NCBI GenBank assembly: GCA_031257315.1
Contig: JAIROW010000253.1
Coordinates: 1-36,604, forward strand
Reading direction: 5' to 3'
From: Prevotellaceae bacterium
GTDB lineage: Bacteria; Bacteroidota; Bacteroidia; Bacteroidales; UBA932
DNA length: 36,604 nt
In this document: piece after piece, positions 5,184 through 23,266 of the stretch
Numbering within the stretch: position 1 is the first letter of the stretch
How the letters are laid out: each line of letters opens with the position of its first letter
Position numbers and translations under genes: made by a program
The notes under the pieces: generated by a model
Databases searched by the model: none
What the model was told of the DNA's origin: nothing
Seen by the model: the letters and a program-made list of their open reading frames with translations, nothing else

Positions 5184-5211
5184 CATGTTTTTTTGTTTAA
5201 AATATTTTTGT

Positions 5212-5832
5212 ATGGGCGATAAATTAAAGGAGCTTACAGACAAACTGTACAGCGAAGGTTTGCAGAAAGGCAAACAGGAAGCGGAAGAACTTCTTGAAAA
5301 GGCAAAAATCGAAGCCGGACGTATTGTAGCCGAAGCAAAAAACATGGCTGCGGAAATTGAACACGCCGCAAAAAAGCGTTCAGAAGAAATGAAGGCAAAC
5401 GCCGACGCCGAAATTAAACTTGCAGGCAGACAGGTTGTCAGCGAAGTGAAACAAACGCTTGAAAATCTGATTATCACTGCTGCTGTATCGAATGATATTA
5501 AAAACGCTTTCAACGACATTGCTTTTGTACAGTCGCTGATAAAGTCGGCAGTGGAAAAATTTGACCTCAAAAACTCGGAAACTCCCGATTTGTTTGTGAT
5601 TATACCGCAGGAAAAGCAAAAAGAATTTTCGGAATATATCTGCGGAAAAGTTTCGCAGGGGTTAGCTTCTCCTCTGGAAATAAAAATAGACGGCGATCTG
5701 AAATCAGGCTTTAAAATCGGCTCAAAATCGGACGGATATTACATAAGTTTTACCGACGGCGAGTTTGAAAACCTTTTCAAGGCATCTCTGCGTTCAAAAG
5801 TTTCCGAATTATTGTTTGGCAACAAATTGTAA
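5212..5832 (+). CDS. atpE: V/A-type ATPase subunit E (peripheral stalk)
   Basis: This 206-residue protein is the first gene of the ATPase operon. Residues of about 5-90 are a long charged, alanine-rich amphipathic helix (KGKQEAEELLEKAKIEAGRI, then more of the same) typical of the stator coiled coil. The C-terminal half is a globular alpha/beta domain that would contact the catalytic head. The ATG at 5212 is preferred over the in-frame ATG at 5185, because 5185 lies upstream of the predicted transcription start and would add an unlikely MFFCLKYFC extension. No subunit G/H gene, the usual coiled-coil partner of E, is present in the operon, so E may dimerise, or its partner may be DUF2764 or encoded elsewhere (inference). 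The stop codon abuts the next ATG directly. Confidence 0.85.
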   Translation: MGDKLKELTDKLYSEGLQKGKQEAEELLEKAKIEAGRIVAEAKNMAAEIEHAAKKRSEEMKANADAEIKLAGRQVVSEVKQTLENLIITAAVSNDIKNAFNDIAFVQSLIKSAVEKFDLKNSETPDLFVIIPQEKQKEFSEYICGKVSQGLASPLEIKIDGDLKSGFKIGSKSDGYYISFTDGEFENLFKASLRSKVSELLFGNKL

Positions 5833-6651
5833 ATGACAAGAAATTATTACCATCTGGTGGCGAGTTTGCCCGATTTGCTGTTTAAATCGGACAGTTTTAA
5901 GAACGTCAGTCTGCTGCAAATCAGAAATTTTATTATGGAAGAAGTTTCTGCCGGAGACCTTGCGTATATGTACGAAATATTAAGTCATATAGACAATTAT
6001 AACCTGATTACGCATCTGTACGGAAAAAACAGGGCGTGGAAAACCGGAGGAAAGTTTGACGCCGAATCGTTCTCAAATCCGCATGATACCAATTTGCCGG
6101 AATATATGCGCCAGTTTTTCGATTATATCGAAAAATACAAAAGCGAAAACGGAACGCAGCCCGACTGTTTTTTGGCAGAACAATATCTGTACAAACTGTG
6201 TTATGAAAGTCTGGAAGCATCGAAAAACATGTTTGTATCGAAATACAGCAGACTTGAAAAGGAAATCAGAAACGTTCAGACGGCATATCTTTGCCGGCAA
6301 TCGGGAATATCTTTTGAAAATCAGTTTATTGCAGAAGATGAACTGACCGAAATGCTGGCAAAAAGTCAGGCACAGGATTTTGGGCTGTCGAAAGAATGGG
6401 ACTATCTTGCCGGACTGGTTCAAATATTTGACGTCAAAGATTTATTTGAAAGAGAAATGAAACTTGATATGTTCAGATGGAACAATATAGACGAAATCAA
6501 TGTATTTGAGTATTTTACAGTGAATATGGTTCTCGGAACGCTGCAAAAAGCCTGTATCGCCGAACGCTGGATGGCGATGGACGGCAGCAAAGGCGAAAAA
6601 ATATTCAAAAAATTAATAAACGAATTAAAATCCTGGAATTTAAAATCATGA
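5833..6651 (+). CDS. DUF2764 family protein of the V-type ATPase operon (candidate subunit C equivalent)
   Basis: This 272-residue, mostly helical soluble protein opens with the NYYHLVASLPDLLF signature of DUF2764, a family found in V-ATPase operons of Bacteroidota. Its ATG follows the atpE stop with no spacer, and its TGA overlaps the atpA start as ATGA, so it is tightly coupled to both. No signal peptide or membrane segment is seen. It occupies the place where subunit C, the socket between the central stalk and the rotor ring, is encoded in many bacterial operons, and no other C gene is present. A role as a diverged C subunit is a reasonable inference from position, size and helical content, but I see no motif that proves it. 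An assembly factor is the main alternative. Confidence 0.8.
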   Translation: MTRNYYHLVASLPDLLFKSDSFKNVSLLQIRNFIMEEVSAGDLAYMYEILSHIDNYNLITHLYGKNRAWKTGGKFDAESFSNPHDTNLPEYMRQFFDYIEKYKSENGTQPDCFLAEQYLYKLCYESLEASKNMFVSKYSRLEKEIRNVQTAYLCRQSGISFENQFIAEDELTEMLAKSQAQDFGLSKEWDYLAGLVQIFDVKDLFEREMKLDMFRWNNIDEINVFEYFTVNMVLGTLQKACIAERWMAMDGSKGEKIFKKLINELKSWNLKS

Positions 6652-8405
6652 AGACTAAAGGAAAAGTAACCGGAATAATAGCAAATCTTGTAATTGTAGA
6701 AGTTGACGGACCCGTGTCGCAGAACGAAATCTGTTTTGTCTCGCTTGGAGAAGTGAAGCTCATGGCAGAAGTTATTAAAATCACAGGCAGCAGAGCGTTT
6801 ATACAGGTGTTTGAAAGCACTCGCGGACTGAAAACCGGAAACGTTGTGGAATTTGAAGGACACATGCTCGAAGTTTCGCTCGGTCCCGGAATACTGTCAA
6901 GTATATACGACGGTTTGCAGAACAATCTGAAAACCATGGACGGCGTCTTTCTGAAAAGAGGCGAATATACAAGTCCCTTAAATCCCGATACTGAATGGAA
7001 TTTCAAACCTTTGGCAAAAGCCGGAGACACTGTTAAAGCCGGAAGCTACCTTGGCGAAGTTCCCGAAAACAATTTAAGTCATAAAATAATGCTTCCCTTT
7101 AAATTCAGGGGAAACTATACGGTAAAAAGCGTGGCGGACGAAGGCAGCTATACGGTAAATCACGTAATAGCAGTTGTTGTTGATGAACATGGCGGCGAAC
7201 ATGATGTAACAATGGTTCAAAAATGGGCTGTAAAACTTCCGATTACCTGTTATAAAAACAAGCCGAGACCGTTCAGAATTATGGAAACAGGAGTACGGAT
7301 ATTCGACACTTTTAACCCGATGGCTGAAGGAGGTACAGGTTTTATACCGGGTCCTTTCGGCTCTGGAAAAACCGTTTTGCAGCACGCTCTCGCCAAACAG
7401 GCTGAAGCTGACGTTATTATAATGGCTGCCTGCGGCGAACGCGCAAACGAAGTTGTCGAAATATTTGTAGAATTTCCAGAACTGAACGACCCGCGCACCG
7501 GACGCAAACTGATGGAACGTACCATAATTGTTTGCAATACATCGAATATGCCCGTTGCAGCCCGCGAGGCTTCGGTATATACGGCTATGACTCTGGGCGA
7601 ATATTACAGGGCAATGGGTTTGAAAACGCTACTGCTCGCCGATTCTACTTCGCGCTGGGCGCAGGCGCTCAGAGAAATGAGCAACCGGCTGGAAGAACTT
7701 CCGGGCGCCGACGCTTTCCCTATGGATTTGTCGGCTGTAATTTCCAATTTTTATTCGCGTGCAGGATACGTCGAACTCGAAAACGACAAAAGCGGCTCGG
7801 TTACTTTTATCGGGACGGTATCGCCCGCAGGAGGAAATTTGAAAGAACCTGTTACAGAATCGACAAAAAAAGTCGCCCGCTGTTTTTACGCGCTTTCTCA
7901 GGCTCGCGCCGACAGCAAGAGATACCCCGCCGTCGATCCCGTTGACAGTTATTCCAAATATTTAGAATATCCTGAAATACAGGAATATCTTAACGAAACA
8001 GTAGAAGACAGATGGCACGAAAAAGTCGCCGAAAGTAAAAATATTATATTAAGAGGAAAAGAAGCGGCAGAACAGATAAACATACTTGGCGACGACGGCG
8101 TCCCGCTCGAATATCACGACCGTTTCTGGAAATCGGAACTTATCGATTTTATTATCTTACAGCAAGATGCGTTTGACAAAACAGATTCGTCAACGCCAAT
8201 GGAACGTCAGAAATACATGTTAAATCTTGTTCTGGAAATATGCCGGCGGTCGCCAGAATTTGAAAATTTTGAAGAATGTGCCTCCTATTACACAGATTTG
8301 ATAAATATCATGAAACAGTTGAATTATTCGGAATACGGCAGCGAAAAATTCATGAATTACGAAAAACAGATTCTGGACAAAACCGGTATAAAAAACAATA
8401 ATTAA
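6648..8405 (+). CDS. atpA: V/A-type ATPase catalytic subunit A
   Basis: This 585-residue protein is full length for the family and carries the catalytic nucleotide sites. The N-terminal barrel runs through about residue 70. The non-homologous insert characteristic of A subunits follows (about 115-185) and includes the GDTVKAGSYLGEV segment. The P-loop is GPFGSGKT at 235-242. The catalytic glutamate is in G-E264-R-A-N-E. The Walker B strand LLLAD ends at D332 and leads into the conserved SRWAQALREMS segment (R336). The C-terminal helical domain is intact. The start overlaps the DUF2764 stop by 4 bases (ATGA), and atpB begins 13 bases after the stop. Nothing suggests loss of function. Confidence 0.97.
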   Translation: MKTKGKVTGIIANLVIVEVDGPVSQNEICFVSLGEVKLMAEVIKITGSRAFIQVFESTRGLKTGNVVEFEGHMLEVSLGPGILSSIYDGLQNNLKTMDGVFLKRGEYTSPLNPDTEWNFKPLAKAGDTVKAGSYLGEVPENNLSHKIMLPFKFRGNYTVKSVADEGSYTVNHVIAVVVDEHGGEHDVTMVQKWAVKLPITCYKNKPRPFRIMETGVRIFDTFNPMAEGGTGFIPGPFGSGKTVLQHALAKQAEADVIIMAACGERANEVVEIFVEFPELNDPRTGRKLMERTIIVCNTSNMPVAAREASVYTAMTLGEYYRAMGLKTLLLADSTSRWAQALREMSNRLEELPGADAFPMDLSAVISNFYSRAGYVELENDKSGSVTFIGTVSPAGGNLKEPVTESTKKVARCFYALSQARADSKRYPAVDPVDSYSKYLEYPEIQEYLNETVEDRWHEKVAESKNIILRGKEAAEQINILGDDGVPLEYHDRFWKSELIDFIILQQDAFDKTDSSTPMERQKYMLNLVLEICRRSPEFENFEECASYYTDLINIMKQLNYSEYGSEKFMNYEKQILDKTGIKNNN

Positions 8406-8418
8406 ATCACATAACGGA

Positions 8419-9738
8419 ATGGAAAAGAAAGCGTTTCAAAAAGTATATACTCAATTGCAGGCAATAACAAAAGCCACCATTGCAGTTAAAGCGCAGGGCA
8501 TTGGAAACGACGAGCTTGCAATAGTTGGCGGACGGCTTGCGCAGGTTGTGCGGATTATCGGCGACATGGTTACGTTACAGGTGTTTTCGGGTACGGAAGG
8601 CATAGCCACAAATACCGAAGTAATATTTCTGGGCGAACCGCCGACGCTTAATGTCAGCGACGACCTTGTCGGACGCTTTTTCGATGCATACGGAAAACCG
8701 TTTTTCGGCGAAAAACGCGAAATCAGAGGCGAAAAACGCGAAATCGGCGGTCCTTCGGTCAACCCGTACAGACGCAAACAGCCGTCGGACTACATTCACA
8801 CCGGAATTGCAGGAATTGACCTGAATAACGCTCTGGTAACAGGTCAGAAAATACCTTTTTTCGCCAACCCCGACCAGCCGTACAATCAGGTTATGGCAAT
8901 GGTTGCTTTGAGAGCAAAAGTAGATAAAATCATTCTCGGCGGAATGGGACTGAGCAACGACGATTTTCTGTATTTTAAAAAAATGTTTGAAAACGCCGGC
9001 GTTCTCGACAGAATAATCTGTTTTGTAAATACAACCGAACAGCCGCCGGTTGAACGGCTGCTGATTCCCGACATGGCGCTTGCCGCCGCCGAATATTTTG
9101 CGGTGGACAAAAACGAAAACGTACTGGTTCTGCTTACCGACATGACGCAGTATGCCGACGCTCTCAGCATTGTCTCGAACCGAATGGATCAAATACCTTC
9201 AAAAGACAGTATGCCCGGCTCGCTTTATTCCGACCTTGCAAAAATTTACGAGAAAGCGGTACAGCTGCCCGAAGGCGGCTCGATAACGATTATCGCCGTT
9301 ACTACGCTGAACGAAGGAGATATAACCCATGCTGTTCCCGACAATACGGGATATATTACCGAAGGACAGCTGTTTCTGCGCAAGGACAGCGACACGGGCA
9401 AAGTTATAGTCGATCCGTTCCGCAGCCTGTCGCGCCTTAAACAGCTGGTTATAGGCAAACAAACTCGCGAAGACCATCCGCAGGTAATGAACGCCGCTGT
9501 CCGACTGTACGCCGACGCCGCAAATGCAAAAACCAAACTCGAAAACGGTTTTGAACTTTCGGACTACGACAAACGGTGCCTGGATTTTGCAAAAGACTAT
9601 GCGGAAAAACTGCTTGCCGTCGATGTTAATATCGATTCAACTGAAATGCTGGACAAAACATGGGATTTATTTTCAAAATATTTCAAAAAGGAAGAAGTCC
9701 GAATTAAAGATGAATTTACGTCGAAATACTGGAAGTAA
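8419..9738 (+). CDS. atpB: V/A-type ATPase non-catalytic subunit B
   Basis: This 439-residue regulatory nucleotide-binding subunit alternates with A in the hexameric head. It has the expected beta-barrel start (KATIAVKAQGIGNDELA), the GGPSVNPYRR segment, the HTGIAGIDLNN region where a degenerate P-loop replaces the A-subunit Walker motif, and the IPSKDSMPGSLYSDLAKIYE stretch that reaches the catalytic interface. Length is normal. One oddity is a 21-base tandem duplication at 8707-8748, which makes the peptide G-E-K-R-E-I appear twice (from residues 97 and 104), just before GGPSVNP, where homologues usually have a PIDGGPEI-like loop. It preserves the frame and lies in a surface turn. Confidence 0.96.
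   Translation: MEKKAFQKVYTQLQAITKATIAVKAQGIGNDELAIVGGRLAQVVRIIGDMVTLQVFSGTEGIATNTEVIFLGEPPTLNVSDDLVGRFFDAYGKPFFGEKREIRGEKREIGGPSVNPYRRKQPSDYIHTGIAGIDLNNALVTGQKIPFFANPDQPYNQVMAMVALRAKVDKIILGGMGLSNDDFLYFKKMFENAGVLDRIICFVNTTEQPPVERLLIPDMALAAAEYFAVDKNENVLVLLTDMTQYADALSIVSNRMDQIPSKDSMPGSLYSDLAKIYEKAVQLPEGGSITIIAVTTLNEGDITHAVPDNTGYITEGQLFLRKDSDTGKVIVDPFRSLSRLKQLVIGKQTREDHPQVMNAAVRLYADAANAKTKLENGFELSDYDKRCLDFAKDYAEKLLAVDVNIDSTEMLDKTWDLFSKYFKKEEVRIKDEFTSKYWK
8707..8748 (+). repeat. 21-bp in-frame tandem repeat inside atpB
   Basis: Two copies of a 21-base unit start at 8707 and 8728 and share their first 18 bases (GGCGAAAAACGCGAAATC). They encode two consecutive G-E-K-R-E-I units. Slippage is the simplest origin. 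Confidence 0.85.
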
Positions 9739-9774
9739 AAATATTATTGGTCAATAAAAAATCGGGTTAAAAAA

Positions 9775-10374
9775 ATGGCTATAAAGTTTCAATTCAACAA
9801 AACTTCGCTCAACGAACTGAACAAACAGTTGAAAATGCGTGCAAAAGCTCTGCCGACGCTTAAAAACAAAGAATCGGCTCTGAGACTTGAAGTCCAGAAA
9901 GCAAAGGAATATGCCGGCAGTTTGTCGATAAAACTGGAAAAACTGATTGCTTCGTATTCCGGCATGTCGCGTCTGTGGAACGAATTTGAGCCTGATTTAA
10001 TTAAAATTGAAGACGTTAAAATAAGTTCAGTCAAAATAGCGGGCGTGCATATTCCTGTACTCGAAGAAATACTGTTCGACGTCAGGCAGTACAGCCTGTT
10101 CGGAAATCCCGCATGGTATTACGATGGATTACAGATTCTTAAAAACATGGCAAGTATCGGCATTGAATACGAATTTTACCATAACAAAATGACCATGCTC
10201 GACGGCGCAAGGAAAAAAACAACGCAAAAAGTAAATCTGTACGAAAAAGTGCAGATACCCGGCTATTCGGAAGCAATACGGAAAATCAAACGGTTTCTGG
10301 AAGACGAAGAAAATCTGTCGAAATCGGCTCAAAAAATAGTAAAAAAACGTCAGGAAGAGGAGGCAGGATTATGA
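9775..10374 (+). CDS. atpD: V/A-type ATPase subunit D (central rotor shaft)
   Basis: This 199-residue protein forms the coiled-coil axle rotating inside the A3B3 head. The start KFQFNKTSLNELNKQLKMR and the following long helix (to about residue 65) are typical of subunit D. A compact middle part follows, and the C-terminal helix (about 140-195) completes the antiparallel coil. The gene follows atpB by 36 bases and ends in an ATGA overlap with atpI. Subunit F, which normally binds the middle of D, has no gene in this operon. Confidence 0.93.
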   Translation: MAIKFQFNKTSLNELNKQLKMRAKALPTLKNKESALRLEVQKAKEYAGSLSIKLEKLIASYSGMSRLWNEFEPDLIKIEDVKISSVKIAGVHIPVLEEILFDVRQYSLFGNPAWYYDGLQILKNMASIGIEYEFYHNKMTMLDGARKKTTQKVNLYEKVQIPGYSEAIRKIKRFLEDEENLSKSAQKIVKKRQEEEAGL

Positions 10375-12152
10375 TAGTACCGATGACAAAATACAGTTTT
10401 CTGATTTTTAAAAATGATTTTAAAAAATTTCTCGAACAGTTGCAGGAAGCTGGAATGATTCATGTAGAATCGACAAACGTAGAACCTGACGGACAGACGC
10501 TTGCATTATTCCGGAAAATTGATGAATATGAGAAAATTTACAATGAACTGCTTTTGCTCAAACCCGATAAAAACGCCGACAGGTTCGACGGAAACGCAGA
10601 AGCTCTGATAGAGAACTATCGCGTCGTAAGGGAACAGATGGCAAAACTTGACGCCCGCATCAAAAATACCGAAAAGGAAGCAACAGACGCTTTACCATGG
10701 GGCGATTTTAATCGGAACGATTTGGATAAACTGAATATCAGCATAAGGTTTTACGCCGTAAATATCAAGCAGTTTGACAGCGACTGGGCAAACAGATTTC
10801 CGCTGTGCGAAATCAGCAGAAACAGCGGCAAAGTCTATTTTGCAGTTCTCAACGACATTCCCGATTTCGGTTTTGATTTGCCTGAAATAAAACTGCCTTC
10901 GGCTTCGTATTCCGATTTGCTCGAAGACTGGAAAAAAATGAAATCGGAGTACGGAAACTTTTGCAAAAAATTAGACTCAATGGCAGCATCTGCCGCTATT
11001 TTGTCGGAGGCTCGCAAATCGTTAATCGAACAGACTGATTTTAATATTGCCGAACTTGGCGCCCGCAGCGAAGCAGATGGCAGTCTGAAACTGCTGTCGG
11101 GCTGGCTGCCTACCGACAGGAAAGAAAAATTTGAAGATTTTCTTGAATCCCTGAACGTCGTTTACTGTTCGACAGACAAGCCCGAAGACGGAGATGAACC
11201 TCCTATTCTGTTGAAAAACAATAAATTTGCCCGTCTGTTTGAGCCTCTTACAAATTTATATTCGCTGCCAAATTACTGCGAACTGGATCCGACGGCTTTT
11301 TTTGCGCCGTTTTTCATGATGTTTTTCGGATTCTGTCTCGGAGACGGAGGTTACGGTTTGATAATATTTCTGACAGCTTTGATTTTAAAATTAAAAATTA
11401 AAAATCCCGATACGCGACGGTATCTTTCGATAGCTCAATGGCTTGGAATTGCAGGCATGTTTTTCGGATTTGTAACGGCAACATTCTTGGGTATTTCCAT
11501 CAATGAAATAAAACTTGACAGAATTGTCGAAGAAAAACTCGACATATCACAAGGATACGGAATGTTGTATCTTTCGCTGCTGTTAGGATTTGTACAGATT
11601 ATATTCGGAATGTGTTTAAAAGTCATGAATATAGTGCATAAGAAAGGAATAAAATATGCGCTGTATCAAATCGGCTGGATTATTATAATTCTTGGAGGAA
11701 TTGCGCTGTATGTAATTGATAATCAGATTATACAAAATATAGTTGCAGTAATTTTCGGACTTAGCGTTCTTATTGCGTTTTTATACAATTCGCCGGGCAA
11801 AAATCCGTTAATAAACATCGGCGGAGGGCTGTGGAACGCATACAATACAGCATCTGGCTTACTTGGCGATATACTCTCATACATAAGGCTTTATGCTCTT
11901 GGTATGACGGGGGGAGTGCTTGGCGAAGTTTTCAACGAAATAGCCATAAGCGCCGGCGACGGAATCAATATTCCCGTTGTTGCTCAGATTGCAACACTAA
12001 TTATTCTGTTGCTGGGACACGGTTTGAATTTTATGCTTGGAATAATAGGCGCTATTGTGCATCCCATACGTTTGACATTTGTAGAATTTTATAAAAATGC
12101 AGGATTTGAGGGAGACGGTTTGCCTTTCAAAATATTTGGAAAAATAAATTAA
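10371..12152 (+). CDS. atpI: V/A-type ATPase membrane subunit I (a-subunit)
   Basis: This 593-residue stator subunit provides the two half-channels for the transported ion. The N-terminal half (about 1-300) is the soluble arm that binds the peripheral stalks. From about residue 310 there are seven or eight hydrophobic segments, starting with the FFMMFFGFCLGDGGYG block typical of the family. The essential arginine is R506 in the SYIRLYALG motif, which faces the rotor carboxylate. The conserved GHGLNFMLGIIGAIVHPIRL tail region and the C-terminal AGFEGDG are present. Size is slightly below that of many homologues (about 600-660) but no domain is missing. It is coupled to atpD by a 4-base overlap, and atpK follows after 34 bases. 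Confidence 0.95.
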   Translation: MIVPMTKYSFLIFKNDFKKFLEQLQEAGMIHVESTNVEPDGQTLALFRKIDEYEKIYNELLLLKPDKNADRFDGNAEALIENYRVVREQMAKLDARIKNTEKEATDALPWGDFNRNDLDKLNISIRFYAVNIKQFDSDWANRFPLCEISRNSGKVYFAVLNDIPDFGFDLPEIKLPSASYSDLLEDWKKMKSEYGNFCKKLDSMAASAAILSEARKSLIEQTDFNIAELGARSEADGSLKLLSGWLPTDRKEKFEDFLESLNVVYCSTDKPEDGDEPPILLKNNKFARLFEPLTNLYSLPNYCELDPTAFFAPFFMMFFGFCLGDGGYGLIIFLTALILKLKIKNPDTRRYLSIAQWLGIAGMFFGFVTATFLGISINEIKLDRIVEEKLDISQGYGMLYLSLLLGFVQIIFGMCLKVMNIVHKKGIKYALYQIGWIIIILGGIALYVIDNQIIQNIVAVIFGLSVLIAFLYNSPGKNPLINIGGGLWNAYNTASGLLGDILSYIRLYALGMTGGVLGEVFNEIAISAGDGINIPVVAQIATLIILLLGHGLNFMLGIIGAIVHPIRLTFVEFYKNAGFEGDGLPFKIFGKIN

Positions 12153-12171
12153 AAGTTAATTATAAATTTAA

Positions 12172-12645
<474 letters not shown>

Positions 12646-13338: not shown

Positions 13339-14721
13339 ATGGGAAATGAAGAATTGAAAGCCGGAATTTTTTCGATTGATAATCATCAACTTACAATCGA
13401 AAACGGTCAGTTACCGATTATAGAATATGCACGCCGGTCTGGCGTTGAAATTCCTTCATTATGCTATGCAAACGGGGCTGCACACAAATCGTCGTGCATG
13501 ATGTGCGCCGTTTCCAACGCTGCATCGGGTCAGATAATTCCCGCATGTTCGACAGTTCCGGTCAACGGTATGCAGATTGTTACCGACAGCGAAGAGATAC
13601 GTACAGTCCGCACCCTGTCGCTCGAACTTTTGCTGAGCGATCACCGCGCCGACTGCGAGGCTCCGTGTAAGATTGCATGTCCGGCAGGTTTCAACGTGGC
13701 AGCAATGAACCGCATGTTCGACGCTGGAAAAATCGAAGACGCCGCTGAATTTATGCGCGATTCGCTGGTCATACCGGCTACGCTGTGCTATATTTGCAAT
13801 GCTCCGTGCGAAAAAATATGTAGAAAAAAAGACCTTGCAGAACCGGTTGCTATCAGAGAAATAAAAAAGATGCTTGTCAGTAAAACGTCAGACGGCAAAA
13901 TAAACAGAATTAAAAATAACGGAAAAAAAACTGCAATAATCGGTTCAAATCCTGCCGGACTGTCGGCTGCATACCGGTTGCGCAAACAGGGCTGCGAAGT
14001 TACGGTGTTTGAAAAGTTCGATAAAATTCTTATTCCTCACATCGAGGCAGACAAAACGCCGCTTGAAACAGTCGAACTCGAAATTGGAATAATAAGACAG
14101 ACAGGCGTAAAATTCATAACTTCATTCAACAGCCTGCCAACTGACAGTTTTGACGGAATTATTTCGGTTTCGGGCGACGAAACGTATCCTGATGCCGTAA
14201 AACTGACGGCTAAAACCAGACAGCCGGCGCGTTTGGTTCTCGAAGGATTTAAACTTGCTGAAAAACTGTTTTCCGAAATGTCCGGAAATATCAAAGCGAC
14301 GGAAATACTGGCAGAAAACAGAATTTTTAACTCTACATACGGTCGTTTCAATGAAAACGAGAAACGCGAACTGTTGAAAAAAACTGAAAGCGACGCCCGT
14401 ACAAGCGGCTGTCTCTATTGCGACTGCAACAGTAAAAACGATTGCCGTCTGCGTAGCTGCGCTACGGCTTACGGTATAAAAAACACAAGATACCTGCGCG
14501 AATCTTCGTTACCGGCAATGAATTGCGTCGAAGCCGGAAATCTGCGTTTTGAAGCCGCAAAGTGCATACGCTGCGGGCTTTGCGTTTACAACAGCATCAA
14601 CGGTTTTACATTTAAAAATCGCGGTTTTGTAATGCAGGTAACGCTTCCCGAAGGAAATGCCGGAAATGTGCCGGAAAGTATTGCCGAACTTTGCCCGACA
14701 GGAGCAATTTGTAGAGCTTAA
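13339..14721 (+). CDS. Multi-cluster Fe-S protein, [2Fe-2S] ferredoxin domain fused to a truncated GltD-like flavoprotein
   Basis: This 460-residue cytoplasmic electron carrier has, in order: a plant/NuoG-type [2Fe-2S] domain with C42, C53, C56 and C70; an H102-x3-C106 motif and a GltD-type 4Fe-4S region (C106, C110, C114, then C150, C153, C157, C161); a dinucleotide motif GSNPAG at 202-207; a cysteine-rich C-x2-C-x-C-x5-C-x4-C segment (358-374); and one ferredoxin cluster (C409, C412, C415, C452). GltD-like relatives with both extra domains are well over 600 residues. Here the middle is cut down, the NAD(P)H Rossmann fold is not seen, and the GxGxxG motif has N204 in place of the central G. 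It may be a partner subunit of a hydrogenase, formate dehydrogenase or similar enzyme encoded elsewhere; no catalytic partner is in the window. The start is the ATG after an A-rich site. Confidence 0.8.
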   Translation: MGNEELKAGIFSIDNHQLTIENGQLPIIEYARRSGVEIPSLCYANGAAHKSSCMMCAVSNAASGQIIPACSTVPVNGMQIVTDSEEIRTVRTLSLELLLSDHRADCEAPCKIACPAGFNVAAMNRMFDAGKIEDAAEFMRDSLVIPATLCYICNAPCEKICRKKDLAEPVAIREIKKMLVSKTSDGKINRIKNNGKKTAIIGSNPAGLSAAYRLRKQGCEVTVFEKFDKILIPHIEADKTPLETVELEIGIIRQTGVKFITSFNSLPTDSFDGIISVSGDETYPDAVKLTAKTRQPARLVLEGFKLAEKLFSEMSGNIKATEILAENRIFNSTYGRFNENEKRELLKKTESDARTSGCLYCDCNSKNDCRLRSCATAYGIKNTRYLRESSLPAMNCVEAGNLRFEAAKCIRCGLCVYNSINGFTFKNRGFVMQVTLPEGNAGNVPESIAELCPTGAICRA

Positions 14722-16143: not shown

Positions 16144-18147
16144 ATGAATAATACACGCAATAATCTGATTTTATTCTGTTTGACGATGTTTACAGTCGTA
16201 TCGTGCGGAGTAAACGCCCGTCTGAAAAAGGCAAATGAAATTTATGAAGCCGGAGGTTACGATAAATCGGCAAATCTGTATAAAAAAGTTGCCCCAAAAA
16301 TAAAAAAGGATAAAAGCAAAAAAGCCGAAACATATTTCAAAGCGGGAGAGGCTTATCGCAAATCGGGAAACTCTTTGCAGGCAGGGAGAAATTACGATAT
16401 GGCAATCAGAAACGGTTATAAGAATGCGGCGGTTTTCATGCACGCCGCAGCGATGGCTTTGATGAACGACGACGTCGAAAAAGCGCAAAACCGTTTGAAA
16501 ACTTTCAGAGATATGGAACCGAACAACCGGCAGGGAGTTGTGTTACAGCAGTCGTGTGAAATGATTCTGTCCGACAAGTCGGCTAAATCCAGACAGCAGT
16601 ACAAAGTCGAAAATATGAAAATATTTAACTCCAAATACCATGATTTTTCTCCTTCGTATGCTTCGAGCGACTATGAAACGGTGTTTTTTACATCGTCGAG
16701 AAAAGACGGCGCGGGAAAAACCAAAACTTTTGAAGCAACCGGACAAAATAACGCCGACATATATAAATCCGTCCTTACGAAAAAAGGCTGGGAAACGCCT
16801 CAACCACTGGACAATACAATAAATACGGTTGACGAAGAAGGCGCAAGCGTTTTCAACAGCAATTATACGACAATTTATTATACACAGTGCGTAAAGGAAA
16901 ACGGCGAAAAATTTGGTTGCAGCATAATGACGGCAAAATCGAAAGGCGATTCGTGGACTGAACCCGAAAAACTGAAATTAGTAAGCGACAGTATGGTTGC
17001 AGCGCACGCGGCGCTTTCTGCCGACGGCTTGACCATGTATTTTTCGTCGAACGTTTTTGGCGGTTTCGGCGGTTTAGACCTCTGGAAAACAGGCAGAGGA
17101 AATGAAGACGATAATTTCTGGAGCGAACCTGTAAATCTTGGCTCTCAAATCAATACTCCCGGCGACGAAGTTTTTCCGACCCTGCGCGGCGATACTCTGT
17201 ATTTTTCATCAAACGGACGGGCTGGATATGGTGGGCTGGATATTTACAAGGCTTGGCAGGACAGCGACGGAATATGGACAACGGTCAACATGGGAAAACC
17301 GTTCAATTCAAACGCCGACGATTTCGGAATTGTTTTTGAAGGCGAAAACGAGCGCGGATATTTCTGTTCGCGCAGAAAAGGCGGACGCGGAGGCGACGAC
17401 ATCTATTCCTTTAAAATGGACATTCCTGTGATAGAATTTGATTTGAAGGGAACTGTACGCGACGCAAAAAGAAACGTCCCGCTTGCCGCTGCCGAAGTCG
17501 TTCTGCACGGAAGCGACGGCTCAAGTCTGAAACGTGTTACCGAAAAAGACGGAACGTTCAGATTCCGTCTTGCAAAAAACACTGAATACATGGCTGTTGT
17601 GCGGCGCAGCGGCTATTTTGTCCAAAAATCCGGACGCATAAATACAGAAGGATTAACCGAGAGTAAAACATTTACCCAAAATCTGCTGATAACTCCATAT
17701 TCTGAAATTGTCGAAATTCCGAACATATTTTTTGAATACGGAAAAGCCGACCTGTCGAAAGAATCGACAGCTGCTCTCGACAATCTTATTGCGCTGATGA
17801 ACGAAAATCCCAAAATAGTGATTTCGCTTATAGCGCATACCGACAACAGAGGCAGCGAAGGAGCGAACATGAACCTGTCGCAGCGACGGGCGCAGGCAGT
17901 CGTCGATTATCTTGTATTCAATGGCGTGGACGATGAACGTCTGGAAGCAAAAGGCATGGGCGAATCGCAGCCGCGAAAAGTTACGGCAGAAATCGCAGCC
18001 AAATATAAGTTTCTCAAAACAGGACAGGTTTTATCGGAAGAATTTATAAACAGTTTGCAAGACAACGACCAGAAAGAAACCTGCCATGCGTTGAACCGCA
18101 GAACAGAAATCAAAGTACTGTCGGAAGATTACGAACCGAATCCGTAA
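16144..18147 (+). CDS. porE: PorE-like OmpA-family lipoprotein (TPR, beta-propeller, CRD, OmpA_C)
   Basis: This 667-residue protein resembles Porphyromonas gingivalis PorE (PG1058), a peptidoglycan-bound component of the type IX secretion system, in order of domains and in size. A lipoprotein signal ends at C21 (TVVSCG). TPR-like helical repeats cover about 25-150. WD40/PD40 blades with repeated SSR.DG, YFSSNVFGGFGGLDLW and YFSSNGRAGYGGLDIY units span about 165-430. A carboxypeptidase-regulatory-like beta sandwich follows at about 435-525. The OmpA domain (about 545-660) has IFFEYGKADL and the peptidoglycan-binding residues D567 (HTDNRG) and R582 (LSQRRA). Related OmpA/PD40 paralogues exist in Bacteroidota, so the PorE name is likely but not certain. 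No other T9SS gene is nearby. Confidence 0.8.
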   Translation: MNNTRNNLILFCLTMFTVVSCGVNARLKKANEIYEAGGYDKSANLYKKVAPKIKKDKSKKAETYFKAGEAYRKSGNSLQAGRNYDMAIRNGYKNAAVFMHAAAMALMNDDVEKAQNRLKTFRDMEPNNRQGVVLQQSCEMILSDKSAKSRQQYKVENMKIFNSKYHDFSPSYASSDYETVFFTSSRKDGAGKTKTFEATGQNNADIYKSVLTKKGWETPQPLDNTINTVDEEGASVFNSNYTTIYYTQCVKENGEKFGCSIMTAKSKGDSWTEPEKLKLVSDSMVAAHAALSADGLTMYFSSNVFGGFGGLDLWKTGRGNEDDNFWSEPVNLGSQINTPGDEVFPTLRGDTLYFSSNGRAGYGGLDIYKAWQDSDGIWTTVNMGKPFNSNADDFGIVFEGENERGYFCSRRKGGRGGDDIYSFKMDIPVIEFDLKGTVRDAKRNVPLAAAEVVLHGSDGSSLKRVTEKDGTFRFRLAKNTEYMAVVRRSGYFVQKSGRINTEGLTESKTFTQNLLITPYSEIVEIPNIFFEYGKADLSKESTAALDNLIALMNENPKIVISLIAHTDNRGSEGANMNLSQRRAQAVVDYLVFNGVDDERLEAKGMGESQPRKVTAEIAAKYKFLKTGQVLSEEFINSLQDNDQKETCHALNRRTEIKVLSEDYEPNP

Positions 18148-21883: not shown

Positions 21884-23266
21884 TTAAGCTCTACAAATTG
21901 CTCCTGTCGGGCAAAGTTCGGCAATACTTTCCGGCACATTTCCGGCATTTCCTTCGGGAAGCGTTACCTGCATTACAAAACCGCGATTTTTAAATGTAAA
22001 ACCGTTGATGCTGTTGTAAACGCAAAGCCCGCAGCGTATGCACTTTGCGGCTTCAAAACGCAGATTTCCGGCTTCGACGCAATTCATTGCCGGTAACGAA
22101 GATTCGCGCAGGTATCTTGTGTTTTTTATACCGTAAGCCGTAGCGCAGCTACGCAGACGGCAATCGTTTTTACTGTTGCAGTCGCAATAGAGACAGCCGC
22201 TTGTACGGGCGTCGCTTTCAGTTTTTTTCAACAGTTCGCGTTTCTCGTTTTCATTGAAACGACCGTATGTAGAGTTAAAAATTCTGTTTTCTGCCAGTAT
22301 TTCCGTCGCTTTGATATTTCCGGACATTTCGGAAAACAGTTTTTCAGCAAGTTTAAATCCTTCGAGAACCAAACGCGCCGGCTGTCTGGTTTTAGCCGTC
22401 AGTTTTACGGCATCAGGATACGTTTCGTCGCCCGAAACCGAAATAATTCCGTCAAAACTGTCAGTTGGCAGGCTGTTGAATGAAGTTATGAATTTTACGC
22501 CTGTCTGTCTTATTATTCCAATTTCGAGTTCGACTGTTTCAAGCGGCGTTTTGTCTGCCTCGATGTGAGGAATAAGAATTTTATCGAACTTTTCAAACAC
22601 CGTAACTTCGCAGCCCTGTTTGCGCAACCGGTATGCAGCCGACAGTCCGGCAGGATTTGAACCGATTATTGCAGTTTTTTTTCCGTTATTTTTAATTCTG
22701 TTTATTTTGCCGTCTGACGTTTTACTGACAAGCATCTTTTTTATTTCTCTGATAGCAACCGGTTCTGCAAGGTCTTTTTTTCTACATATTTTTTCGCACG
22801 GAGCATTGCAAATATAGCACAGCGTAGCCGGTATGACCAGCGAATCGCGCATAAATTCAGCGGCGTCTTCGATTTTTCCAGCGTCGAACATGCGGTTCAT
22901 TGCTGCCACGTTGAAACCTGCCGGACATGCAATCTTACACGGAGCCTCGCAGTCGGCGCGGTGATCGCTCAGCAAAAGTTCGAGCGACAGGGTGCGGACT
23001 GTACGTATCTCTTCGCTGTCGGTAACAATCTGCATACCGTTGACCGGAACTGTCGAACATGCGGGAATTATCTGACCCGATGCAGCGTTGGAAACGGCGC
23101 ACATCATGCACGACGATTTGTGTGCAGCCCCGTTTGCATAGCATAATGAAGGAATTTCAACGCCAGACCGGCGTGCATATTCTATAATCGGTAACTGACC
23201 GTTTTCGATTGTAAGTTGATGATTATCAATCGAAAAAATTCCGGCTTTCAATTCTTCATTTCCCAT
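21884..23266 (-). CDS. Multi-cluster Fe-S protein, mirror copy
   Basis: Mirror of 13339-14721. The product has the same cysteine set and the same missing NAD(P)H domain. Because both copies are identical, the truncation cannot be tested by comparing them. Confidence 0.78.
   Translation of the reverse strand: MGNEELKAGIFSIDNHQLTIENGQLPIIEYARRSGVEIPSLCYANGAAHKSSCMMCAVSNAASGQIIPACSTVPVNGMQIVTDSEEIRTVRTLSLELLLSDHRADCEAPCKIACPAGFNVAAMNRMFDAGKIEDAAEFMRDSLVIPATLCYICNAPCEKICRKKDLAEPVAIREIKKMLVSKTSDGKINRIKNNGKKTAIIGSNPAGLSAAYRLRKQGCEVTVFEKFDKILIPHIEADKTPLETVELEIGIIRQTGVKFITSFNSLPTDSFDGIISVSGDETYPDAVKLTAKTRQPARLVLEGFKLAEKLFSEMSGNIKATEILAENRIFNSTYGRFNENEKRELLKKTESDARTSGCLYCDCNSKNDCRLRSCATAYGIKNTRYLRESSLPAMNCVEAGNLRFEAAKCIRCGLCVYNSINGFTFKNRGFVMQVTLPEGNAGNVPESIAELCPTGAICRA

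Follow-up and report, generated by a model that had tools for sequence, protein, structure and literature searches.

A BfuA-type iron-sulfur protein with a vestigial flavin domain, most likely a wire of a membrane-linked electron-bifurcating complex in Bacteroidales

A 36,604-nucleotide contig from a Prevotellaceae bacterium (the window, meaning the whole stretch of DNA analysed) carries a gene for a GltD-like iron-sulfur protein with a shortened flavin/NAD(P)H core. This raises the question of whether the protein is still an oxidoreductase, has become an electron wire or scaffold, as the initial annotation proposed, or is simply the product of an assembly deletion.

The gene is an intact open reading frame encoding 460 aa, without a frameshift. 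The contig in which it lies (C157 of a genome assembly of 3.02 Mb in 281 contigs, 95.8% complete) is a perfect palindrome: 36604 of 36604 positions equal those of its own reverse complement. Its two arms, each 18,302 bp long, meet between 18302 and 18303 without a spacer, and every gene is mirrored. Such a contig is probably an assembly artefact. Because a natural gap-free palindrome of 18 kb is unlikely, we treated the two copies of the target gene as one, which they very probably are:

13339..14721, plus strand: target gene, BfuA/NuoG-like iron-sulfur subunit, a short form with a vestigial GltD-type flavin domain that is kept in relatives
21884..23266, minus strand: mirror copy of the target gene, a product of the contig palindrome

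A search of the window's genome with the target returned no second close match anywhere in it. The genome also encodes separate GltD/NfnB-like proteins of normal length, on contigs C41 and C107. The target is an orphan here: it adjoins V-ATPase genes and lies away from its presumed partner genes. The V-type ATPase operon occupies 5185-12645 (plus strand) immediately upstream, with subunits A, B, D, I and K identified, and a gene for a PorE-family type IX secretion protein lies beside the palindrome centre at 16144-18147 (plus strand; NF052230, 598 bits, narrowly below the cutoff of 600).

Domain architecture of the 460-residue protein

Pfam detects a Fer2_4 [2Fe-2S] domain at residues 11-84 (E=1.2e-7, above cutoff) and a GltD/DPD-type Fer4_20 domain at residues 105-183 (E=8.6e-8). 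A Rossmann stub starts at residue ~195, and just its first Rossmann unit is recognised (NAD_binding_8, residues 200-228). For the C-terminal 4Fe-4S domain Pfam gives a weak hit (Fer4_15, E=0.007), yet its four cysteines are invariant. The features of the protein are as follows:

13369..13650 (residues 11-104), plus strand: NuoG/HydA-type [2Fe-2S] domain with C42, C53, C56, C70 and H102 of HxxxC, from Fer2_4 and ligand conservation
13651..13893 (residues 105-185), plus strand: GltD/DPD-type double [4Fe-4S] domain (Fer4_20) with C106, C110, C114, C150, C153, C157, C161 and K176
13786..13788, plus strand: C150, a gained cysteine; Cys wherever a vestigial or FAD-domain-less form covers it, Gly in 24 of 24 long ~520-aa forms
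13915..14316 (residues 193-326, 134 residues), plus strand: FAD-domain remnant; beta-alpha-beta unit and GSNPAG loop kept, GGxLR, ATG and GN/GD-R lost, NADPH domain absent
14410..14445, plus strand: N5-like [4Fe-4S] module C358-x2-C361-x-C363-x5-C369, split from HxxxC by the GltD insertion
14563..14694, plus strand: C-terminal N4-like single [4Fe-4S] site, C409, C412, C415 and C452, from Pfam and ligand conservation

The protein has 19 cluster-type cysteines, and the 18 other than C150 are conserved, together with H102, in every covering row of an alignment of 39 sequences. Pfam and ligand conservation thus bear out the initial claim that all cluster motifs are kept: [2Fe-2S], Fer4_20, the C-x2-C-x-C module and the C-terminal [4Fe-4S]. 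The claim that the core is shortened by well over 100 residues also holds, as ~200 residues are missing relative to both the family plan of NF009454 (PRK12814, 657 aa) and residues 1-674 of 9bov_A/StnC. NF009454 is the best NCBIfam model for the target; it matches mainly over residues 11-303 and at 211.9 bits, against a cutoff of 916, which places the target outside the GltD/PRK12814 equivalog. The [2Fe-2S] ferredoxin domain and 4Fe-4S domain that BfuA has at minimum are both present. The target is one of the BfuA (NuoG/StnC-like) subunits known from Bfu electron-bifurcating enzymes.

The AlphaFold2 model of the target (pLDDT 92.1, pTM 0.87) aligns with 9bov_A 1-674 over 444 of 460 residues (Z 26.2, rmsd 5.4). 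Its top structural matches are 9bov_A, 8oh5_C (StnC) and 9n5u_A (Z 25-26), followed by GltD 2vdc_G (model residues 105-325), the N-termini of complex I NuoG and the HoxU-like 5xf9_B; ~198 residues superpose on the NuoG and HoxU-like chains with an rmsd of 2.1. Complete FAD and NAD(P)H domains, for which a fold check had been proposed, are not seen in the model, whose match to GltD-type chains is confined to the cluster domain and a portion of the FAD fold.

The closest known counterparts are StnC of the transhydrogenase StnABC from Sporomusa ovata (8oh5) and subunit A of Nfn-ABC from Caldicellulosiruptor saccharolyticus (9bov_A) and Thermococcus sibiricus (9n5u_A), which share with the target the order [2Fe-2S], GltD insert, N5/N4-like clusters, as well as a BfuBC-type partner. 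Unlike them, the target has no NADPH domain, no FAD motifs and no FdhF-like C-terminal domain, and it has gained C150. HoxU and the N-termini of NuoG and HydA also carry [2Fe-2S], N5-like and N4-like sites that superpose with those of the target. In NuoG and HoxU, the N5-like cysteines follow directly after HxxxC; in the target, two additional [4Fe-4S] sites and a folded remnant of the flavin domain come between them. With NfnB (NfnL) and the GltD small subunit it shares the Fer4_20 double-cluster domain and the first Rossmann unit, but it has no NADPH domain and its FAD domain is incomplete.

Size series of relatives

The search for relatives covered 393 genomes from the order and 200 from the family. 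Five intact relatives in the same family also have the short form (459, 462, 454, 462 and 430 aa in G443, G524, G400, G451 and G469, respectively; 51-64% identity), and so does a sixth, G530, where it is split across two contigs; a scan of genome contigs returned a single relative, with the same match as that of G443. The remnant is collinear among the short forms, with an extra gap in G469. Because the short form recurs in this way, an assembly deletion or a frameshift is rejected as its origin.

The relatives fall into five size classes. The largest (~1,200-1,250 aa) are StnC-like, with the full GltD insert. Those of ~520 aa (~500-558) have the FAD domain but no NADPH domain, and the target's class of 430-462 aa retains a flavin-domain remnant. 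In the forms of ~325 aa (~321-349; 383 in L090, where the start is uncertain) the FAD domain is gone and Fer4_20 leads directly into the C-terminal clusters; L050, of 366 aa, is another form without it. The smallest (~200 aa; 197-206) have lost the whole insert, Fer4_20 included, and are HoxU-like, nearly the HoxU module alone. The iron-sulfur ligands are preserved down to the ~325-aa form. The contiguous HxxxCxxCxxxxxC that follows the [2Fe-2S] domain in NuoG and HoxU is found only in the 197-aa L096, as HYATCGTCASKNAC; in the target it is split by the GltD remnant.

The 522-aa L017, a ~520-aa form, matches 9bov_A over 3-289 and 425-671 and leaves 290-424 unmatched: its NADPH domain is cleanly missing and its split FAD domain is kept. 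The target keeps the first FAD half, and the second is not recognisable. In fits of the whole models to StnC and 9bov_A, L017 (pLDDT 90.3) scores TMq 0.89-0.90 and the target 0.63-0.64, in keeping with a more complete predicted FAD domain in L017. The NAD(P)H domain is therefore absent from the target, as first described, but it was already lost in the ~520-aa relatives; what is specific to the target is erosion of the FAD half. The NADPH Rossmann domain of Type 1 Nfn-Bfu/Stn enzymes, whose third substrate is NADPH, is likewise found in neither the target nor the ~520-aa forms.

In trees built on shared columns, the 460-aa clade is monophyletic (support 93-97) and, with the StnC-like forms as outgroup, nested among forms lacking the FAD domain, which implies at least two losses. 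The placement of the 197-206-aa forms is weak owing to their short alignment, and we claim at least two independent losses. The least diverged pair, L085/L086, gives an omega of 0.25 for the remnant, against 0.16-0.19 for the Fe-S domains, most other pairs being near saturation; by this measure, selection on the remnant is slightly relaxed and still constraining.

Partner genes and the predicted complex

The partner gene found beside relatives of the target encodes a NuoE-NuoF (BfuC-BfuB) fusion of ~790 aa, comprising NuoE, a [2Fe-2S] region, NuoF, NADH_4Fe-4S and two C-terminal [4Fe-4S]. It contains the parts of a Bfu core (NuoF FMN domain, SLBB, NADH_4Fe-4S, C-terminal 4Fe-4S and NuoE-type [2Fe-2S]), of which SLBB is weak and below the Pfam cutoff. 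Its closest PDB chains are NfnB of 9n5u, 9bov_B and StnB. Across the order, 59 of 63 genomes with the target also have the fusion, which lies within 1 kb of the target in 48 (median gap 31.5 bp; Fisher p=5e-58, uncorrected for kinship). Among the 200 genomes of the family, 13 have both genes, one the target only, two the fusion only and 184 neither, with p-values that likewise ignore kinship.

Across the order, the ~520- and ~325-aa genes lie in a conserved cluster that reads, with some variation: propeller protein, c6, Tat-type ferredoxin, NapH-like membrane protein, ~600-aa propeller, BfuCB fusion, target, ~375-aa propeller, glycosyltransferase, ABC ATPase and FtsX permease (for example L048:408-18000 and L052:3-17017). 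It holds several PQQ-like beta-propellers and a LolD/FtsX-type ABC pair, with the glycosyltransferase in most loci. The NapH-like protein has six hydrophobic segments, two CxxxCP and two 4Fe-4S motifs. A NapH/NosR-like membrane protein with two CxxxCP and a Tat-type ferredoxin also make up the NapGH quinol dehydrogenase module, but here they are tied to BfuCB/BfuA genes and beta-propellers, not to nitrate reductase. Our search of largely openly accessible literature found no published description of a BfuCB/NapH-like/propeller cluster. The initial suggestion of a hydrogenase, formate dehydrogenase or molybdoenzyme as partner fell away, as these are not the genes found around the target; the BfuC-BfuB fusion and the NapH-like module stand beside its relatives.

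The window's genome keeps all of these components, scattered: BfuCB on C195, the Tat-type ferredoxin and NapH-like protein on C161, and the ~375-aa and ~600-aa propellers on C60 and C141, respectively. In G469, the same components still form one cluster. On C195, a 654-aa NuoL/HyfB-like membrane protein (L059:6547-8511, minus strand; assigned by eye) is encoded divergently from the fusion; among the loci read, a NuoL-like gene beside BfuCB occurs at this one alone.

In the Bfu framework, BfuA feeds the electrons of a third substrate into the BfuBC core (PMC9304861). The reading we favour, at a probability of roughly 70%, is that the target is a BfuA-type relay that has lost its NADP(H) reaction and wires the BfuCB core to another partner, most likely the NapH-like protein and the Tat-type ferredoxin. 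The ancestor would have been of the StnC/Nfn-Bfu type, in which a GltD (NADPH:FAD) domain is inserted into the NuoG N-terminal module between [2Fe-2S]/HxxxC and the N5/N4-like clusters. In this lineage the insert would have decayed by loss of the NADPH domain from all forms, of the FAD motifs from the target, of the FAD domain from the ~325-aa forms and of the entire insert from the ~200-aa forms. With the NADPH domain gone and the FAD motifs lost, the target would no longer react with NADP(H); single electrons would pass through one [2Fe-2S] and four [4Fe-4S] between BfuCB (NADH/FMN/ferredoxin) and the membrane Fe-S protein and exported ferredoxin of the same cluster. The assembly of these subunits into a complex, the direction of electron flow (with menaquinol or a periplasmic acceptor as candidates) and the third substrate are deduced, and the association with the NapH-like protein and Tat-type ferredoxin is based on gene neighbourhood and co-occurrence. 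The partner of the target differs from that of StnABC and Nfn-ABC in being a BfuC-BfuB fusion and in its linkage to membrane and periplasmic genes. As the NADPH site that defines Nfn-Bfu has been lost from BfuA, a Type 1 enzyme, with catalysis inside BfuA, appears to have turned into one of Types 2/3, where extra subunits would do the chemistry; the NapH-like protein and the Tat-type ferredoxin are the best candidates.

An unlikely but serious alternative is that the system is a non-bifurcating NADH dehydrogenase, a HoxEFU/NuoEFG-like diaphorase that passes NADH electrons through the target to the membrane module without ferredoxin. The smallest relatives are indeed HoxU-like in both size and motif, as L096 illustrates. 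However, the BfuCB fusion retains two C-terminal [4Fe-4S] and a [2Fe-2S] region ahead of NuoF, and a His (eeHisg) in it aligns, in 9n5u_B, 9bov_B and 8oh5_B, with the one that precedes the C-terminal Cys pair. By this alignment the fusion has the His ligand of the BfuB B2 [2Fe-2S] cluster, which separates bifurcating from non-bifurcating homologues (Schut et al., PMC9304861). The target is most likely the wire of a membrane-linked, electron-bifurcating complex that is apparently undescribed.

Fate of the flavin domain

We wondered whether the remnant might still hold a flavin. GxGxxG, GGxLR, ATG and GN/GD-R mark FAD binding in GltD/NfnB-type flavoproteins. In the target, the first has become GSNPAG (residues 202-207), as first described, and the others are deleted or replaced. 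Nearly all ~520-type sequences have GGxLR, ATG and GN/GD-R, which are absent throughout the 460-type clade (GGxLR by deletion). That the target has lost the NADPH site is plain, and it has very probably lost the flavin site as well.

A second alternative, somewhat less probable than the diaphorase, is that the protein is a flavoprotein to this day: a modified pocket in the remnant would hold FAD or an ADP-containing nucleotide, and a partner, not NADPH, would reduce the flavin. Its beta1-alpha-beta2 is the best-preserved part (65% mean identity in the 460 clade), the beta-alpha-beta unit is modelled at pLDDT >90, and L087 keeps GSGPAG. The second Gly is nonetheless replaced in the target and most of its clade, the remaining motifs are gone from the clade, and sister forms keep the partner and the clusters without the whole domain. 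The retained, conserved P-loop-like beta-alpha-beta unit does count against the relay reading, and some nucleotide might still bind it.

C150 lies three residues ahead of C153, in the neighbourhood of the flavin-proximal cluster. NfnB is reported to use Glu for this cluster. In the alignment, target K176 is the counterpart of StnC K170; all 460-type forms have Lys at this position, as do 23 of the 24 long forms, the remaining one having Glu, and it is lost in the ~325-aa forms. The flavin-proximal cluster in StnC uses K170 or C114 (PMC10482914). We infer that C150 may have replaced the earlier ligand; once it took this role, the Lys on the flavin side would have become dispensable, followed by the flavin domain itself.

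That the protein instead serves as a scaffold, the other half of the initial proposal, or helps to assemble Fe-S proteins is very improbable: the target does lie far from the partner genes in its own genome, but its complete cluster set and co-occurrence with BfuCB suggest a redox function, and no scaffold-type family was matched. The wire half is supported by the reductive series, the retention of ligands while FAD motifs were lost and the conserved redox partner. A decaying pseudogene or functionless assembly deletion, which the orphan position and the probably misassembled palindromic contig might suggest, is the least probable of all in view of short forms in several other genomes, invariant ligands, the omega of 0.25 in the remnant of the least diverged pair and the confident model. 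The orphan position, apart from the presumed partners, also counts against the relay reading.

Bfu enzymes are thought to evolve by swapping their third-substrate module. We tentatively propose, at a little under even odds, that the Bacteroidales loci represent a new Bfu class, in which a bifurcating NADH/ferredoxin core is wired by a de-flavinated, shrinking BfuA to a NapGH-like module of membrane protein and periplasmic ferredoxin, accompanied by beta-propellers. The shift from transhydrogenase to this enzyme would be recorded as a living domain-loss series, in which a cysteine compensates at what was once the flavin-proximal cluster. With five size classes of one subunit in one order, one could trace residue by residue how a catalytic flavin module is lost and converted to a plain relay. 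The series also carries a warning for annotation, as a Bacteroidales protein can match "NADPH-dependent glutamate synthase small subunit" models and yet have no NADPH site. At one further locus (L045:8448-11051, minus strand), the ~500-aa BfuA-like protein and the PQQ-like propeller encoded downstream form a single in-frame fusion of 867 aa.
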